Shown: positions 37,352-52,573 of the stretch, piece after piece
Numbering within the stretch: the first letter of the stretch is position 1
Layout: every line of letters begins with the position of its first letter
NCBI GenBank assembly: GCA_021794575.1
Contig: JAJYQO010000025.1
Span: 1 to 64,000 of the forward strand
DNA length: 64,000 bases
Source of the DNA: Pseudomonadota bacterium
Lineage (GTDB): Bacteria; Pseudomonadota; Gammaproteobacteria; Xanthomonadales; Rhodanobacteraceae
Direction of reading: 5' to 3'
The notes under the pieces: generated by a model
Seen by the model: only the letters and a program-made list of their open reading frames with translations
Databases searched by the model: none
What the model was told of the DNA's origin: nothing
Translations under genes and position numbers: made by a program

Positions 37352-38344
37352 ATGCAAACGACGCTCACCAAGCCTGAACTGCTCCGGCGTCTGCTCGACG
37401 CAGCGACGGCCGGGGGCTATCAGACCATCATCACAGCGCGGCAGCACCCTTTCGGCCTGCGCATCTTCAAACCAGAAGAGACCGAGGCGCTCAAGGTGCG
37501 CGCCTATATCTGGAACTGCACCCACGGCGGCAACAACCGCGCGGCCGACGAGTATCGGGTGCAACTCACAGGCGTAGTCCCTCAAATTGCTTCCGGTGAG
37601 CAGACCGTGCTGCTCGGCTGGCATGAGGATTATCAGGTTTTCGTCGCCTTCGACATCACCAAGCACGCCGGGCAGGCCTCGGCTTCGCCCTCAATACAGG
37701 TAAAGGAGAACATCCTACTTGCGGCACACACGAAGGCCTTTTCCGCCTACGAGCGCGCAAACGGGGAGATTGCCGTCGCCTTTCGGCCGGAGTTCTTCCC
37801 GGAGTACGTCAAGCAGGCGCCCCTGCTGCACGACCAGCGCGGCGCCATCGGCCCCTACCTTGAGGCCCTCAACGACGTGGCCCAACTGACGGAGAGTGAT
37901 GTCGCCGCCATAACCAAGCCAGAGCGCCGCGAGGTGCTCGCGACCATACGCAAGAAGGTTAGAGAGCAGGACTTCCGCGCGCGCGTGCTCAGGGCTTACG
38001 GGGATCAGTGCGCCATGTGCGGCGTGCAACTGCGCCTCATTGAGGCAGCACACATCCTGCCTGTCGCCGAACCCACCAGCACCGACGAGACAGCGAATGG
38101 CATTGCACTTTGCAGCCTGCACCATGACGCCTACGACCGAAACCTGATTTCTTTCAGCGACAGCTACCGCATCGAGACGAGCGGGGCCTCCGAGCAGTTG
38201 CTCCGCGCCGACAAGCTGCTCGGCGGGCTCGCTGCCTTCAAGGCGGCCCTGCGGCCTGCAATCCTGCTCCCGGCCGACCGGCGCGACCACCCTCGCCCCG
38301 ACTACATCCGGCGCAGCCGCGAGGTCAGGCGCTGGCGAGCGTAG
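37352..38344 (+). CDS. HNH endonuclease, probable restriction enzyme
   Basis: 330 aa. The N-terminal domain has IITARQHPFGLRIFKPEE and VRAYIWNCTHGGNNR, a pattern I associate with restriction-type HNH proteins. The C-terminal HNH nuclease is clear: DQCAMCGVQLRLIEAAHILP, ending NGIALCSLHHDAYDRNLI, with a zinc-type CxxC and the catalytic AAHI histidine. It probably cuts DNA unmodified by the methyltransferase encoded 0.7 kb downstream. Codon use (more AT-ending codons) differs from its neighbours, suggesting horizontal transfer. The start at 37352 is the first ATG. Confidence 0.82.
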   Translation: MQTTLTKPELLRRLLDAATAGGYQTIITARQHPFGLRIFKPEETEALKVRAYIWNCTHGGNNRAADEYRVQLTGVVPQIASGEQTVLLGWHEDYQVFVAFDITKHAGQASASPSIQVKENILLAAHTKAFSAYERANGEIAVAFRPEFFPEYVKQAPLLHDQRGAIGPYLEALNDVAQLTESDVAAITKPERREVLATIRKKVREQDFRARVLRAYGDQCAMCGVQLRLIEAAHILPVAEPTSTDETANGIALCSLHHDAYDRNLISFSDSYRIETSGASEQLLRADKLLGGLAAFKAALRPAILLPADRRDHPRPDYIRRSREVRRWRA

Positions 38345-46240: not shown

Positions 46241-46684
46241 CTACCAGAGCCCCGGCAGGAAGCGGCGCGTGCGCGCCTCGTAGTCGGCATACTCGGGCCA
46301 ACGCGCGCGCAGCAGGCGCTCCTCCAGCGCCGCCTTGCCGTTCAGCACGACCGCCAGCAGCAGCACGATCAACGCACGCCACACGCCCCCCGCGCACAGC
46401 GCCCAGCCCGCCGCACCCAGCAGCACGGTGAGATACATCGGATGCCGCACGTAGTGGTACGGACCGGCGGTGACCAACCGCGCCTGGGCGCGCGGCTGTG
46501 GCCGCACGTTGAAATTGCCGGGCCGGTTGTGCAGCAGCGTCCACACACCCAGCATTACCGCCAGCAGCAGCAGGACGACACCCGCCGGCCGCCACGCCCA
46601 GCGCCACGGTGGCGCCAGCAGTAGCGCGGCCAGCAGGCCGAACTGGGCGAACACATACAGCCAGGCCTGTACAGTGATGCGCAT
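46241..46684 (-). CDS. Isoprenylcysteine methyltransferase-family membrane protein
   Basis: 147 aa with about four helices. LVTAGPYHYVRHPMYLTVLLG is the RHPxY motif of the ICMT/PEMT fold, and the end reads ALEERLLRARWPEYADYEARTRRFLPGLW, also typical. These proteins are SAM-dependent methyltransferases of unknown bacterial substrate. It is the last minus-strand gene downstream of the sulfur cluster and converges on plsB. Confidence 0.85.
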   Translation of the reverse strand: MRITVQAWLYVFAQFGLLAALLLAPPWRWAWRPAGVVLLLLAVMLGVWTLLHNRPGNFNVRPQPRAQARLVTAGPYHYVRHPMYLTVLLGAAGWALCAGGVWRALIVLLLAVVLNGKAALEERLLRARWPEYADYEARTRRFLPGLW

Positions 46685-46711: not shown

Positions 46712-47218
46712 CTAACCGCTGCCCGCAGCCAACATTTGCCGCAGCAGCGGTGCGGCCAGGCCGCCCTCGACACGCGCCTGGATGCGGCCGTCGGCACCGA
46801 TCAGGATCTGCGTGGGCGTCACGCGCACACCGAAGGCCTGGGCGATGCGGCCATCGCGGTCCCACGCCAGCGGATAGGTGATGCCGGCGCGTGCCGCCAC
46901 TACGCGGATCGCATGTGGATCGCTGTAGCTCATGGCCACGCCGATCAGGGTGAATCGCGGGCCGGCGGCCCTGGCGAGGCGTTCGAACCGGGGCAGTTCC
47001 GCCACGCAGGGCACGCAATCCGGCGCCCAGAAGTCGATCAGCACGGCATGGCCGCGCTGCTGCGCGAGGCTGAGCCGACCGCCGCCAAGCAGCGGCATGA
47101 CCAGGGCAGGTGCGGGATGGCCCGGCCGCTGGCGCCAAGCTGGCGCCAGCGTGATCCACAGCGCCGCCCCGGCCGCGAGGGCCAGGGCAAGCGCGATCGA
47201 GGCTCCGCGCACACGCAT
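46712..47218 (-). CDS. TlpA-like periplasmic thioredoxin
   Basis: The start at ATG 47218 overlaps the DoxDA stop (TGATG), giving 168 aa. An N-terminal helix or signal (ASIALALALAAGAALW) precedes a redoxin fold with the active site FWAPDCVPCVAELP (Cys68, Cys71) and the cis-proline in GVRVTPTQILIG. CVPC rather than CPHC suggests a reductant for periplasmic disulfides or cytochrome c apoproteins. Coupling to doxDA suggests it services the sulfur oxidation proteins. Confidence 0.87.
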   Translation of the reverse strand: MRVRGASIALALALAAGAALWITLAPAWRQRPGHPAPALVMPLLGGGRLSLAQQRGHAVLIDFWAPDCVPCVAELPRFERLARAAGPRFTLIGVAMSYSDPHAIRVVAARAGITYPLAWDRDGRIAQAFGVRVTPTQILIGADGRIQARVEGGLAAPLLRQMLAAGSG

Positions 47219-48285
47219 CAGCGCGTCAGCGGCAGGCTCCACAGGTGTCCGTTCACCGACACCAGATGCAGCGTGTAGTGGCCGGGTGCCAGGTTCAGAC
47301 CAGGCTGCGTCGGCGCCAGTTCGACCATCGCCTGTGCGCCCACCGGACCGACCAAGCCGAACTTGCCGGCGTGGATCTTCTGGTAGACGAAGTCGTTCTT
47401 GAACGCCTGCTTGGGCGTATGCGCCAGCAGCATGCCGTCCCATTCCTCGACGATCTGCCCGCCGTCGCTGATCAGCGAAGCGCGCAGCACATTGGAGGGC
47501 TCGGCCGGCGTGCCGGCGTCGACGTAGGCGTGGAAGTGCACGGCGCCATCGGCCTTCAGCTCGCCCTGGCTCAGCGTCCAGTGGTGCTTGGACGGACTGG
47601 TGGGTCCGCCGTGGAAGGGTGTGACCACCGAGCCGCGGTAGTAGTTGTAGGTCAGCACGACGAAACCCACGGTGATCCAGAACAACACCAGCGCCAGCTT
47701 CTTGAACGCGGCTTCGGAAAGCGGCAGCGGTCCCGCGCCGCCGATCCAGTTGAACCACTTGCGCATCGCCAGTTTCGGGTTGCGCCGGGCCAGCCAGCTA
47801 TCCACCGAATAGGCGCCGCCGCCGGCCAGGAACAGTGTGATGCCTATGCCGAAGTTGGCTGCGGCCATGGTCCATTCGTCGATGCAGGTGGCGCCCTGCC
47901 AACCGAACAGCAGCATCAGCACGAAGCTGAGCCCGATGGTGGCCAGCGCCGCCAGTCGCGTGTACAGGCCGACGATCAGCATCAAACCGGCGATTGTCTC
48001 CACCGCGCTGAACACGATCACGCCCGCGTACAGCAGGGTGAAGTGCTGCAGCAGCCAGGCCACCAGGTGGTCGGTGCCGAGCAGCGCGCCGGGCATGGCA
48101 GTCTGGAACTTGTAGGCCATCCAGTGCGCCGACGGATCGATCTTGGACGGCGCGTAGATGAAGCGGCGTGTGCCGCCGCCCCAGTAAATCCAGCCCTGCA
48201 CGAAGCGGACCGCCAGCAGGGCGATAGCGGCCATGCGCCAGCCGCGCGCGGCGTCCGGGCTGGCCAGGGGTTGCGTGGTGCTCAT
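47218..48285 (-). CDS. doxDA: Thiosulfate:quinone oxidoreductase, DoxD-DoxA fusion
   Basis: 355 aa. Residues 1-180 form the DoxD part, four helices with IYWGGGTRRFIYAPSKIDP and VIVFSAVETIAGLMLIVGLYTRL. After a linker helix (FWITVGFVVLTYNYYRG) the DoxA part follows (TSPSKHHWTLSQGEL, HAYVDAGTPAEPSNVLRASL, FGLVGPVGAQAMVEL). In Acidianus the two are separate subunits; fused forms occur in acidophilic sulfur oxidisers. The enzyme oxidises thiosulfate to tetrathionate and reduces quinone. It lies 98 nt after tsdA and overlaps the TlpA-like gene. Confidence 0.88.
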   Translation of the reverse strand: MSTTQPLASPDAARGWRMAAIALLAVRFVQGWIYWGGGTRRFIYAPSKIDPSAHWMAYKFQTAMPGALLGTDHLVAWLLQHFTLLYAGVIVFSAVETIAGLMLIVGLYTRLAALATIGLSFVLMLLFGWQGATCIDEWTMAAANFGIGITLFLAGGGAYSVDSWLARRNPKLAMRKWFNWIGGAGPLPLSEAAFKKLALVLFWITVGFVVLTYNYYRGSVVTPFHGGPTSPSKHHWTLSQGELKADGAVHFHAYVDAGTPAEPSNVLRASLISDGGQIVEEWDGMLLAHTPKQAFKNDFVYQKIHAGKFGLVGPVGAQAMVELAPTQPGLNLAPGHYTLHLVSVNGHLWSLPLTR

Positions 48286-48383: not shown

Positions 48384-49388
48384 TCAGTCGCGCAGCGTCG
48401 TCGTGGTGCGTCCGCGCGCTGCCTGCGTCACGGTACTGCCGCCGGACACGCCCGAGCCAACGCCAAGCAGATGTCCATTGACGGTGCGGCCGTAGGTTTC
48501 ATAAGGTCCGTCGTGAAATTGTCGGCGCGTGGCCTCGATCGAGCCCAGGTAGCGCGGATCCTGCGGGCGCTCGTGGCTGTCGATGTAATAGGCCACGTCC
48601 CATGCCTGCTGGTCGCTGAGGCTATTGCCGTTGCCCAACGGCATGTTGGCCTTGATGAAGCCGGCGGCCAGGTCCAGCCGCGACATGCCCGCGCCCCAGT
48701 TGTATGACTGCGGCCCCCACAGCGGCGGAAACCAGGGTTTGCCCTCGACCAGCAGGCCCTGGCCATCGGCGCCGTGGCATAGCGCGCAATGCTCGGTGTA
48801 CAGCGCCTGGCCGCGCGCGTAGTCCCAACCCTGCGCGGGCTTGGGCAGCCTGGGATAGCCGGCACCGCGCAACACCGCATGCGTGGGCGCGCCGCTGGCC
48901 ATCCAGTACGAATACGCCTCCAGCGCCACCAGCGCGGGCGAGCCCGACGGCGGCGCCTTGCCGTTCATGCTGAAGCGGAAGCAGTCCTGCAGGCGCTCCT
49001 CGAAGGTGTTGACGTGCCGGTTCTTGCTGCGGTACGCGGGGTAGCTGACCCACGCCGCCCACATCGGCGCGCTGTCGGCCAAGCGGCCGGCGTCGAGATG
49101 GCAGTTCCGGCAGCTCAGGGTGTTGCCCGTGTATTGCGGCGCGTGTGCCGGCGTGTTGCGGAACAGCGCCTCGCCCTGGCGCACCACGACGCCGAAGGCA
49201 TCGTCGGGAATGGCGCTCGACGGCGGCGGCGCGAATGCCACCGCAACGGGCCGGGCCGGCTGCGCGGCGCTGGCCGCCGCCAGCGGCGCCGCGCTGCCTT
49301 GCGGGGCCTGCTCGCAGGCCGACAGCACACCGCAAGTGGCGATGGCGATCAGGGTATGGGCGGAGCGGAATGCGCTGCGCGCGCTCAT
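48384..49388 (-). CDS. tsdA: Thiosulfate dehydrogenase (diheme cytochrome)
   Basis: 334 aa with a lipobox (GVLSAC, Cys25), so membrane-tethered in the periplasm. Heme 1 is bound at SCRNCHLDAG (Cys93-Cys96-His97). The distal cysteine ligand that marks TsdA is in RLQDCFRFSMNGK (Cys136). Heme 2 is at CALCHGADGQG (Cys201-Cys204-His205). TsdA joins two thiosulfates into tetrathionate. The start overlaps the stop of the diheme cytochrome gene upstream (ATGA), matching the tsdBA order known elsewhere. Confidence 0.88.
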   Translation of the reverse strand: MSARSAFRSAHTLIAIATCGVLSACEQAPQGSAAPLAAASAAQPARPVAVAFAPPPSSAIPDDAFGVVVRQGEALFRNTPAHAPQYTGNTLSCRNCHLDAGRLADSAPMWAAWVSYPAYRSKNRHVNTFEERLQDCFRFSMNGKAPPSGSPALVALEAYSYWMASGAPTHAVLRGAGYPRLPKPAQGWDYARGQALYTEHCALCHGADGQGLLVEGKPWFPPLWGPQSYNWGAGMSRLDLAAGFIKANMPLGNGNSLSDQQAWDVAYYIDSHERPQDPRYLGSIEATRRQFHDGPYETYGRTVNGHLLGVGSGVSGGSTVTQAARGRTTTTLRD

Positions 49389-50116
49389 GGCCTGGCCTCC
49401 GTCGCAACGGTTGCCGCCAGCGTGGGCTGCGCTGCGAAGTACTGGCTGACGGCCACGATCTCGGCCTCACTGAGGCGCTTGCCGATGGCCCCCATCAGGC
49501 CGTCGAGGCCGGCCGGGCGCTGGCCGTTCTTCCAGGCGCGCAACTGCCGTTCCAAGTACACCGCCGGCTGGCCGGCGATGGGCGGGAACGCGGCGCTCAG
49601 CGCACCGCCCAAGCCCCGCCCGCCAGGGCCATGGCAGGTGACGCAGGCGGGAATCGCATCGCGACCGCGCAGAGCCAGCGCCTCACCCAGCGCCGGTGGC
49701 GGTGTCACCGGCGACATGATCGGCGGCGGCACCTGACGCGAAAAATACGTGGCCAGCGCTGCGATCTGGGCATCGTCGAGCTTATGCGCGATGGCTTGCA
49801 TGCTGGGGTTGTTACGCGCCAGCGCATCGAAGTGCTTGAGTTGGCGTTCGAGATAAGGCTTGGGCAAGCCGGCCAGGTGCGGAAAGGCGGCCTTGATCTT
49901 GCCCTGCCCCTCCTCGCCGTGGCAGATGGCGCACTCGTGCGCGCCCTGCGGACTGCCGTGCAGCACGATCTGCTGCGCCAGCGCCATTTGTGCCGCCAAC
50001 GCGGCACTGCTGGACGCAGCCGGCCGCACGCTCGCGTCAGCCGCGGGCGGCGGCGCATCTGCATGCGCCACGGCGCCCGACAGCAGCACCGCCGTCAGTA
50101 CCCCATGCCGGCGCAT
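49385..50116 (-). CDS. tsdB: Diheme c4-type cytochrome, probable TsdB electron acceptor
   Basis: I choose the ATG at 50116 (MRRHGVLTAVLLSG), 243 aa with a signal peptide ending AVAHA. Two c-type heme sites are spaced as in cytochrome c4: ECAICHGEEGQG (Cys62-Cys65-His66) and ACVTCHGPGGRG (Cys158-Cys161-His162), each followed by a FPHLAG/FPPIAG and PYLERQL / VYLERQL block. Translational coupling to tsdA makes it the likely acceptor that passes electrons to terminal oxidases. The TsdB name rests on context plus the diheme pattern. Confidence 0.8.
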   Translation of the reverse strand: MRRHGVLTAVLLSGAVAHADAPPPAADASVRPAASSSAALAAQMALAQQIVLHGSPQGAHECAICHGEEGQGKIKAAFPHLAGLPKPYLERQLKHFDALARNNPSMQAIAHKLDDAQIAALATYFSRQVPPPIMSPVTPPPALGEALALRGRDAIPACVTCHGPGGRGLGGALSAAFPPIAGQPAVYLERQLRAWKNGQRPAGLDGLMGAIGKRLSEAEIVAVSQYFAAQPTLAATVATEARP

Positions 50117-50144: not shown

Positions 50145-50918
50145 TCACGGCTTCCCGGACCCGCTCTGCCAACCCCAATGCTCGAAGATGGCGCGCCCCC
50201 GTGCACCTTTGAGAAACGCCACGAACGCCCGCGCCGCAGCACTGGCTTCACCACGCGTGGTCAAACCCACACCGCAGTCGCGATACAGGCGGTAATGCGG
50301 CTCCAGCGGCACCACCTGCGCCACACCCGGATGCGCCACCGCCCAGATGTTGAAGATCAGCCAAGCCTGGATGGAAGGGTCTTCCTGCCAGCGCTGCAAC
50401 GCCAGTGCGCTGTTGGGCGCGGCGTATACGATATTGCGGCGGAAGGCGCGCACGCTGGCGATGTCGCCGTCGCGGCCGGCGATGTCCTCCCACAGCCCGA
50501 CCTGCCCGGCGCCATCGACCACCATCACTTTGACGCCCGGCTCGAGCAGACCGCGGAAGCCGGTGATGTGCCCGGGGTTGCCGGGGCGCACCAGGATCAC
50601 CGCCGGGCGCAGGTACAGCGGCTCGATGGTGGCGGGATCGAGCACGCCGGCCAGGTCGCGCTGGAAGTCGGCCATCATCGCCTCGGAGCCGGAATAGATC
50701 ACATCACCGGTGGCGCGCGCCGCATCCAGCCATTGCGGCGTGGGACCGGCCGTAACTTCGACGGTGACGCCGGGATGGCTGCGCTCGAAGGCGGTCGCGG
50801 CCGCCTTCATAGCGGGCGCCGGACCGCCGGGACCGAACACGCGCACCAGCGTGGCGGCCATGCTACTGCCGCTGAGCAGGATCAGACTCAGCAGCAGCAG
50901 TGACCGCCACGGGCACAT
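50145..50918 (-). CDS. AcfC/ModA-like periplasmic solute-binding protein
   Basis: 257 aa with a signal peptide (LSLILLSGSSMA). The type-2 periplasmic-binding fold shows RVFGPGGPAPAMKAAATAFE, GDVIYSGSEAMMADF and VRPGNPGHITGF, resembling AcfC and molybdate/sulfate-binding proteins. No ABC permease or ATPase gene lies nearby. It ends 28 nt before the tsdB start and begins 4 nt after the other binding-protein gene. It may bind a sulfur oxyanion for the adjacent enzymes; this is inference. Confidence 0.8.
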   Translation of the reverse strand: MCPWRSLLLLSLILLSGSSMAATLVRVFGPGGPAPAMKAAATAFERSHPGVTVEVTAGPTPQWLDAARATGDVIYSGSEAMMADFQRDLAGVLDPATIEPLYLRPAVILVRPGNPGHITGFRGLLEPGVKVMVVDGAGQVGLWEDIAGRDGDIASVRAFRRNIVYAAPNSALALQRWQEDPSIQAWLIFNIWAVAHPGVAQVVPLEPHYRLYRDCGVGLTTRGEASAAARAFVAFLKGARGRAIFEHWGWQSGSGKP

Positions 50919-50922
50919 GCGT

Positions 50923-51939
50923 TTACTCCTTGGTGGCGTCAGCCGGCGCCGCCTTGAAGCCGTAACGCTCGAAGATCTTCAGCGCCGTCGGCGAACGCAG
51001 GAATTCGATCCAGAGTTTGCCCGCCGCAGGATGCGGCGCATCCTTCACCAGCGCCGCGGCATACACCGCCGTGGTGTTGTACTTGGCGGGGATGTCCACG
51101 TGACTGATCGGATGCCCGGCCTGCTCCTGGAAGATGGCTTCGGACTTCCAGGTGATGCCGGCATCGCCCAGACCCTGCATCAGGAACAGCGGCGTCTGCC
51201 GATGATGGATGTGGGTGAGAATGGTCTGGCCGTTCTTCACCTTGGTGTCGTAGACCATCGTCTCCAGCGCCGGGCCACCGGCCTTGCGCAGGCTGGCCTC
51301 GATCTGCCGCGCCACGCCCTCCCAGGCCGGGTTGGGCATCACCAGGCGCACGCCGGGCCTGCCCAGATCCTGCAGACTGGTGATGTGCCCCGGGTTGCCC
51401 TTGGGCACCATGATGGTGAGATCGTTGGTGACATACGGCACTGCCGGCGCCAGCAGCTTGCCGGCCGCGATCTGCTCGTCGACCTTCTTCAGTCCGGCAG
51501 CGTACACATCCGGCGGCACGGTGAAGGTCATGTTGCCGGAGGTGAAGGTATTGCCCATCGCCATGGCCTTAATCAGCAGGCCCGGTGGGATGGTCACGTA
51601 GAAGATCTTGCCGCGCAGCTCCGGGTGCTCGGCCTCGAAGGCCCGCACCAGCGGTGCCATGGCGAAGTAGTAGTTGCCGCCGACGTAGATCACCAACCGC
51701 GGATCGTTGACGCTGCCGTGGAAATCGGGCATCGAATCGACTTCGGGGATGGTGAACTCCAGGCCTTTCTGCAACGCCGGATTGTTCGCGCCGTGCGACC
51801 ACGGCGGATACAGGGTTTCGCTGTACTTGGGCGCCGACACCGGCTTGCCGGTGCCGGCCTGCGCGGCGCCGAGGCCGAGCACGCCCAGCACGCACATCAC
51901 CGCCGCAAGCATGGATTTGCGATGCAGGCTCATAGACAT
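50923..51939 (-). CDS. Second orphan ModA-like solute-binding protein
   Basis: 338 aa with a signal peptide ending GAAQA and a GAGGAA ribosome site. Fold markers are RLVIYVGGNYYFAMAPLVRAFE, MGNTFTSGNMTFTVPP, VPKGNPGHITSLQDL and RSPTALKIFERYGF. The shared GNPGHIT motif shows kinship with the neighbouring binding protein, but an N-terminal extension of about 70 residues is unique to it. Oxyanion binding is plausible; the ligand is unknown. It lies 79 nt after the dsrE-like gene. Confidence 0.8.
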   Translation of the reverse strand: MSMSLHRKSMLAAVMCVLGVLGLGAAQAGTGKPVSAPKYSETLYPPWSHGANNPALQKGLEFTIPEVDSMPDFHGSVNDPRLVIYVGGNYYFAMAPLVRAFEAEHPELRGKIFYVTIPPGLLIKAMAMGNTFTSGNMTFTVPPDVYAAGLKKVDEQIAAGKLLAPAVPYVTNDLTIMVPKGNPGHITSLQDLGRPGVRLVMPNPAWEGVARQIEASLRKAGGPALETMVYDTKVKNGQTILTHIHHRQTPLFLMQGLGDAGITWKSEAIFQEQAGHPISHVDIPAKYNTTAVYAAALVKDAPHPAAGKLWIEFLRSPTALKIFERYGFKAAPADATKE

Positions 51940-52018: not shown

Positions 52019-52573
52019 TTACATGCGCATCAGCGCGTAGCCCTGGTTCTGCTGGATGATCAGCGTGGACAGCGCCGACAGCGCCACCTTGATGTCGGGG
52101 TTCACCTCGGCGGGGGTGAACTGCATGTCGCCCAACGCGTTGCCGCACACCATCACGTCGACGCCGGCCTTGCGGAGATCGGCGATCACCGCAAGGTTGG
52201 GGTTGGCGTGGCCGTACTTGGCCATGTAGGCCTTCTCACCCAGCGCGATCGGCGTGGCGCCGCCGTGGATGATTACATCGAACTTCAGGTGGCTGAGCGG
52301 CACGCCGGCGGCGGCGAAGGTGTTGACCGCGCGCGCGATGTGATCGAGGCCCGGGTTGACCTTGTCGGCCGCCGGGTTGCCCTGGGTCACGTCGAACAGC
52401 GCCTTGTAGACCTTCTTCGGACTGGGCCGGTCGATGGCCTCGGGCCAGACGTGCACCGGACCGTAGGCCTGGATCGCCGGCTTGATCCAGAAGCCTTCGG
52501 GCTGCGCGGCAAAAGCCGACACGGACAGCGCCATCGCGGCGGCAACGGCGATCAGGCGGGTATACGGTTTCAT
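52019..52573 (-). CDS. Exported DsrE-family protein
   Basis: The ATG at 52573 (MKPYTRLIAVAAAMALSVSA) gives 184 aa with a cleavable signal (SAFA). The DsrE/F-like fold shows LKFDVIIHGGATPIAL, then ADLRKAGVDVMVCGNALGDM with one conserved cysteine (Cys143), and ALSTLIIQQNQGYALMRM at the end. Cytoplasmic DsrE relatives carry sulfur on such a cysteine. A periplasmic version next to thiosulfate enzymes suggests sulfur or sulfane handling outside the cytoplasm. It is the first gene of the run. Confidence 0.88.
   Translation of the reverse strand: MKPYTRLIAVAAAMALSVSAFAAQPEGFWIKPAIQAYGPVHVWPEAIDRPSPKKVYKALFDVTQGNPAADKVNPGLDHIARAVNTFAAAGVPLSHLKFDVIIHGGATPIALGEKAYMAKYGHANPNLAVIADLRKAGVDVMVCGNALGDMQFTPAEVNPDIKVALSALSTLIIQQNQGYALMRM

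Follow-up and report, generated by a model that had tools for sequence, protein, structure and literature searches.

A predicted exported, single-cysteine DsrE-family protein paired with a substrate-binding protein in tetrathionate-forming thiosulfate oxidation loci

The formation of tetrathionate from thiosulfate is one of the main sulfur oxidation steps in acidic habitats. In Acidithiobacillus ferrooxidans the identified tetrathionate-forming enzyme is TSD (AFE_0042), whose activity has been measured and whose gene comes first in a cluster with the order tsd, sbp, doxDA, rhd, resA (reviewed in PMC6335251). Sulfur induces the tsd-doxDA operon (PMC2754497). How TSD catalyzes its reaction has been described as awaiting clarification (PMC6335251), and a question mark has been drawn in place of its electron acceptor (PMC10859504). 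Proteins of the DsrE family have been described from the cytoplasm. DsrE3A of Metallosphaera cuprina, encoded in an hdr cluster, takes thiosulfate from tetrathionate, forming a Cys-S-thiosulfonate (PMC4175335), and DsrEFH and TusBCD are cytoplasmic heterohexamers in which DsrE or TusD, carrying the active cysteine (Cys78), is joined by F and H or by B and C. In the literature searched, most subscription papers being outside its coverage, we found no link between a periplasmic DsrE and either TsdBA or DoxDA, and no experiments on the exported DsrE family considered here. Databases already call these genes "DsrE family protein."

The protein that we analyzed is encoded in a stretch of 64,000 nucleotides from a member of the Rhodanobacteraceae (the window; Table 1). 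An earlier note on this DNA had reported the gene without its strand; the gene is real and intact, a frame of 184 aa on the minus strand with a GAGGAG ribosome-binding-like stretch upstream of the ATG, and the plus-strand frame over the same positions is without independent support. Assignment to the DsrE family, also made in that note, holds: the protein matches DsrE/DsrF (PF02635) in Pfam at E 2.6e-11 and 44.1 bits, against a curated cut-off of 22.7, and its AlphaFold2 model, built on an alignment of 56 homologues (mean pLDDT 91, with only the N-terminus poor), has a DsrE-like fold, the top PDB matches in Foldseek all being DsrE-like (2pd2, 1l1s, 3mc3, 2qs7, 3pnx, 2hy5, and 1jx7). The one conserved cysteine that had been pointed out, Cys143, is present without exception in the 56 aligned homologues, and exactly one cysteine lies past residue 35 in all 80 relatives from named genomes. 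The note had held that its reading would fall if this cysteine were not conserved among orthologues; conservation was examined, and it is what these alignments contain. Both hhalign and hmmsearch, with low scores, align Cys143 with Cys78 of E. coli TusD, the active position of DsrE and TusD. Taken together, the comparisons support Cys143 as a conserved cysteine of the active-site type.

Table 1. Features of the dsrE operon in the window
Feature	Positions	Strand	Basis
Exported (predicted) DsrE-family protein, operon head	52019..52573	-	Pfam DsrE, AlphaFold2, Foldseek
Predicted Sec signal peptide, residues 1-22, AFA/AQP	52508..52573	-	read from sequence
Cys143 codon, sole cysteine of the protein	52145..52147	-	invariant in homologue alignment
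SBP1, periplasmic substrate-binding protein	50923..51939	-	PF13531 4e-52
SBP2, second substrate-binding protein	50145..50918	-	PF13531 2e-45
TsdB-like diheme cytochrome c, likely start ATG 50116	49385..50116	-	two cytochrome c stretches
TsdA, diheme thiosulfate dehydrogenase	48384..49388	-	matches to TsdBA 5lo9 and A. vinosum TsdA
DoxDA, thiosulfate:quinone oxidoreductase, fused DoxD-DoxA	47218..48285	-	DoxD 5e-28, DoxA 2e-12
TlpA/ResA-like exported thioredoxin, CVPC	46712..47218	-	domain match; gene has an ATGA overlap with doxDA
ICMT/PEMT-like membrane methyltransferase, last of the gene run; membership uncertain	46241..46684	-	domain match

The N-terminus of the protein, MKPYTRLIAVAAAMALSVSAFA/AQPEGFW, looks like a Sec signal, in line with the export signal that had been pointed out. 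Starts among relatives were scored by a crude rule; by this rule 77 of the 80 named relatives are signal-like and the remaining 3 are marginal. These features of the sequence support a prediction that the protein is exported from the cytoplasm.

That dsrE heads a sulfur cluster is borne out by the seven tightly packed minus-strand genes downstream of it, which encode two orphan substrate-binding proteins, TsdB, TsdA, DoxDA, a TlpA-like protein, and finally a methyltransferase that is found in some relatives only. From dsrE down to this last gene, and with the tsdB start taken at ATG 50116, the gaps are 79, 4, about 28, -4, 98, -4 (or nearly so), and 27 bp, the first of the 4-bp overlaps joining tsdB to tsdA. 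On the other side, about 300 bp off, lies a P-II (glnB) gene. TsdA has matches in the TsdBA of PDB 5lo9 (1e-94) and in A. vinosum TsdA (about 1e-58), and both CxxCH motifs as well as the cysteine after heme 1 align between it and known TsdA. The DsrE protein shares an operon with TsdA and the TsdB-like cytochrome, but is itself heme-free. Among its neighbors (SBP, cytochromes, DoxDA, TlpA, and P-II) there is no dsrFH, tusBC, or tusA, and no hdr genes lie near it. Thus, whereas its fold and active cysteine position are those of DsrEFH and TusBCD, the partners with which those complexes are built are not encoded here. SBP1 is only distantly related to sulfate-binding proteins, SBP2 is present in part of the dsrE loci, and no ABC permease for either was found in the cluster. 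Scanning the window against Rfam and for tRNAs gave no hits, and promoter and terminator scans found nothing. Elsewhere in the window, at 37352-38341 on the plus strand, is a gene whose product combines a methylase-associated X1 domain with an HNH endonuclease domain.

How regularly dsrE travels with tsdA can be read from 198 genomes of one family, judged to be Rhodanobacteraceae from named loci such as those of Oleiagrimonas soli and Rhodanobacter sp. DHB23. The DsrE protein occurs in 70 of these genomes and TsdA in 66, with both in 64, so that 64 of the 66 tsdA genomes carry dsrE (Fisher 3e-42, uncorrected for phylogeny). The two genes are also close: dsrE lies within 5 kb of tsdA, and on the same strand every time, in 65 of the 68 tsdA loci. 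Counted from the other side, tsdA is within 5 kb in 65 of the 93 dsrE loci and is not nearby in 28; therefore, dsrE copies in other contexts exist.

A wider scan of named genomes yielded 80 dsrE loci from Rhodanobacteraceae, Acetobacteraceae, Burkholderiaceae, Sphingomonads, Erwiniaceae, and others. SBP1 adjoins dsrE in 66 of these, and TsdA and/or DoxDA are nearby in 69; if loci that are cut within 3 kb downstream are omitted, the counts become 64 and 67 of 74. No thiosulfate oxidase is nearby in 11 of the 80. The dsrE-sbp pair is kept in Acetobacter, Burkholderiaceae, and Sphingomonads, with TsdBA, DoxDA, or both as the oxidase, and in a maximum-likelihood phylogeny of the 80 DsrE proteins the partner label (TsdA, DoxDA, both, or none) changes at least 14 times, compared with 35 in shuffles. 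The dsrE-sbp pair is the constant part of these loci, and the oxidase is exchanged. A one-cysteine DsrE with a predicted export signal accordingly accompanies both classes of tetrathionate-forming enzyme. Other genes come and go around this core: a LysR-type regulator upstream in part of the named loci, cbb3 oxidase genes with TsdBA in ten, and a cydA/cydB-like gene (a reading made by eye) after DoxDA in several.

Several individual loci deserve mention. A mobilizable plasmid of Acetobacter ascendens (L229; NZ_CP015167.1, 6914-13668) carries a complete thiosulfate oxidation island beside an IS5 transposase, in the order dsrE-sbp-sbp-cytochrome c-cytochrome c-cbb3 oxidase I and II, and Paraburkholderia fungorum has a gene set resembling it. 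A plasmid of onion-associated Pantoea agglomerans (L231; NZ_CP134766.1, 1352-9859) encodes a DsrE of the exported type in a cluster with TauE, YeeE/YedE, DsbD, DsbG, and the persulfide dioxygenase Blh. Genes for Tsd or Dox are missing from this cluster, which is likely one for sulfur stress. In two other genomes (L179, 6172-7821; L180, 6762-8009) genes that look by eye like tetrathionate hydrolases, with a PQQ-type repeat, lie beside doxDA. Finally, a record titled Deltaproteobacteria (L074) has a dsrE that groups, by way of a very long branch, with those of the genus to which the window belongs, for which transfer, contamination, and artefact are the alternatives. The dsrE gene with a predicted export signal could serve as a marker for thiosulfate oxidation islands, some of them on mobilizable plasmids.

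The slot that dsrE occupies, before sbp and a thiosulfate oxidase, is filled elsewhere by TSD. Five genomes from a different family have, immediately before SBP1 and DoxDA, a protein whose start is of the Tat type, the gene order published for A. ferrooxidans. This protein is TSD by the NCBI model NF052225 (357 bits against a 300-bit cut-off), a model that, judging from name, size, and synteny, probably describes AFE_0042. The window protein resembles TSD of A. ferrooxidans in its predicted export, in lying upstream of sbp and doxDA, and in having a resA-type thioredoxin in its cluster. A close relationship of TSD to DsrE is not supported: TSD has no match to the Pfam DsrE model or in the PDB. 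TSD is also larger (about 260 aa) and begins with a Tat-type signal, and the window protein matches no NCBIfam family, NF052225 included, at E up to 0.01. It is profile comparison alone that connects the two. Against a profile of close exported DsrE proteins, six TSD rows gave a probability of 65% (E 6e-5, score 37) and sixteen gave 19% (E 0.0013, score 29), where column shuffles scored at most 22. Against a distant exported DsrE set, the probabilities were 93-94%, with E 1.2e-7 and 2.5e-7 and scores of 54 and 52 for six and sixteen rows, respectively; here the best of 150 column shuffles reached 25, reversed profiles 17, and unrelated families at most 21. Adding TSD rows thus lowered the score with the close profile and not with the distant set. 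The alignment covers the C-terminal 60-70 residues and superposes the invariant cysteines, so that the one invariant cysteine of TSD falls on Cys143. An AlphaFold2 model of TSD from 5 rows has a pLDDT of 38, too low to demonstrate a shared fold. TSD is likely a distant homologue of the exported DsrE proteins.

From these results we propose, with a probability of about 0.6, that the DsrE protein is a periplasmic, cysteine-based handler of thiosulfate or sulfane sulfur within a tetrathionate-forming thiosulfate oxidation module. The protein would be exported by Sec, and its DsrE fold, as modeled, would present Cys143. This cysteine may take up thiosulfate, or the thiosulfate group of tetrathionate, as Cys-S-S-SO3 or as a persulfide, a step suggested because cytoplasmic DsrE3A provides the precedent for such thiosulfate-binding chemistry. 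The neighboring SBP1 would bring or hold the oxyanion, the oxidase, by homology TsdBA delivering to cytochrome c or DoxDA delivering to quinone, would take the electrons, and the TlpA-like thioredoxin would reset the cysteine. Weighing against the proposal are the 11 named loci that lack a thiosulfate oxidase nearby, the 28 family loci that lack a nearby tsdA, and the low values of TSD against the close DsrE profile. The analogy is weakened, moreover, in that in characterized DsrE3A there are two reactive cysteines, and its partner is the cytoplasmic TusA rather than a cytochrome. The suggestion of sulfur handling in the periplasm goes back to the earlier note and is strongly supported by context, that is, by TsdBA and DoxDA, which make tetrathionate, and by the presence of TSD in this slot elsewhere; where the protein resides and what its cysteine does are what we infer. 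What that note did not see is the wider pattern of a constant dsrE-sbp pair, interchangeable oxidases, and a slot shared with TSD.

The proposal can be extended, tentatively and with less conviction than we attach to the handler itself. Exported DsrE and TSD might belong to a single superfamily whose members carry thiosulfate in the periplasm without a cofactor. These carriers, each with a binding protein of its own, would be loaded as Cys-S-thiosulfonate and would supply TsdBA or DoxDA, the two oxidases being interchangeable. If this were true, TSD would be no free-standing dehydrogenase, and its electron acceptor would be the neighboring oxidase. Setting TSD beside the DsrE family, together with the finding that a DsrE with a predicted export signal accompanies both classes of tetrathionate-forming enzyme, offers a concrete, testable cysteine mechanism and a candidate electron acceptor.

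Among the alternatives to a handler of thiosulfate, the one that survives best is defense against sulfane sulfur and polythionates, in which the DsrE protein would scavenge persulfide, polysulfide, or tetrathionate in the periplasm and be reduced by Dsb- or TlpA-type proteins, its role being protective and not catalytic. The Pantoea agglomerans cluster, with its Blh, TauE, YeeE/YedE, and Dsb proteins and no Tsd or Dox, speaks for such a role, and the window cluster does encode a TlpA-like thioredoxin. We consider this unlikely, since a thiosulfate oxidase is present in most loci, dsrE and SBP1 keep together, and TSD fills the same slot. It is distinctly improbable that the DsrE protein makes tetrathionate itself, as a thiosulfate dehydrogenase that, like TSD, has no cofactor and hands its electrons to an unknown acceptor. 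The shared slot, the distant homology, and the measured activity of TSD (PMC6335251) would fit this, but the protein has no NF052225 match and neither a redox cofactor motif nor a second cysteine, and TsdA and DoxDA of the same operon already perform the reaction. That dsrE stays paired with an orphan binding protein even as the oxidase is exchanged would also suit a structural role for Cys143, the protein then serving the TsdBA/DoxDA system as a sensor, an assembly factor, or a subunit without catalytic function; an invariant cysteine at the DsrE/TusD active position, among neighbors that do sulfur chemistry, leaves this with very little probability. A cytoplasmic DsrE-type sulfurtransferase whose N-terminus is no working signal is barely credible, for although characterized DsrE proteins are cytoplasmic (PMC4175335) and the signal was called by a crude rule rather than a predictor such as SignalP, nearly all relatives (77/80 by that rule) have signal-like starts, dsrFH, tusBC, and tusA are not among the neighbors, and the start of TSD, which fills this slot elsewhere, is of the Tat type.

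As a ligand of SBP1, sulfate was considered and dropped: the loop that aligns with the Ser-Gly-Gly of the sulfate-binding protein, which presumably serves ligand binding there, reads W-E-G. A short DsrE-like frame (E 7e-4) in a distant genome (L228, 7741-8124) lies immediately before an SBP1 relative and is possibly a further variant of the dsrE-sbp pair. Lastly, SBP1 of the window and its relatives share the stretches IHHRQxPL, D.HG, and MPNP..EG, which are conserved across 66 sequences and are unusual for a sulfate binder.
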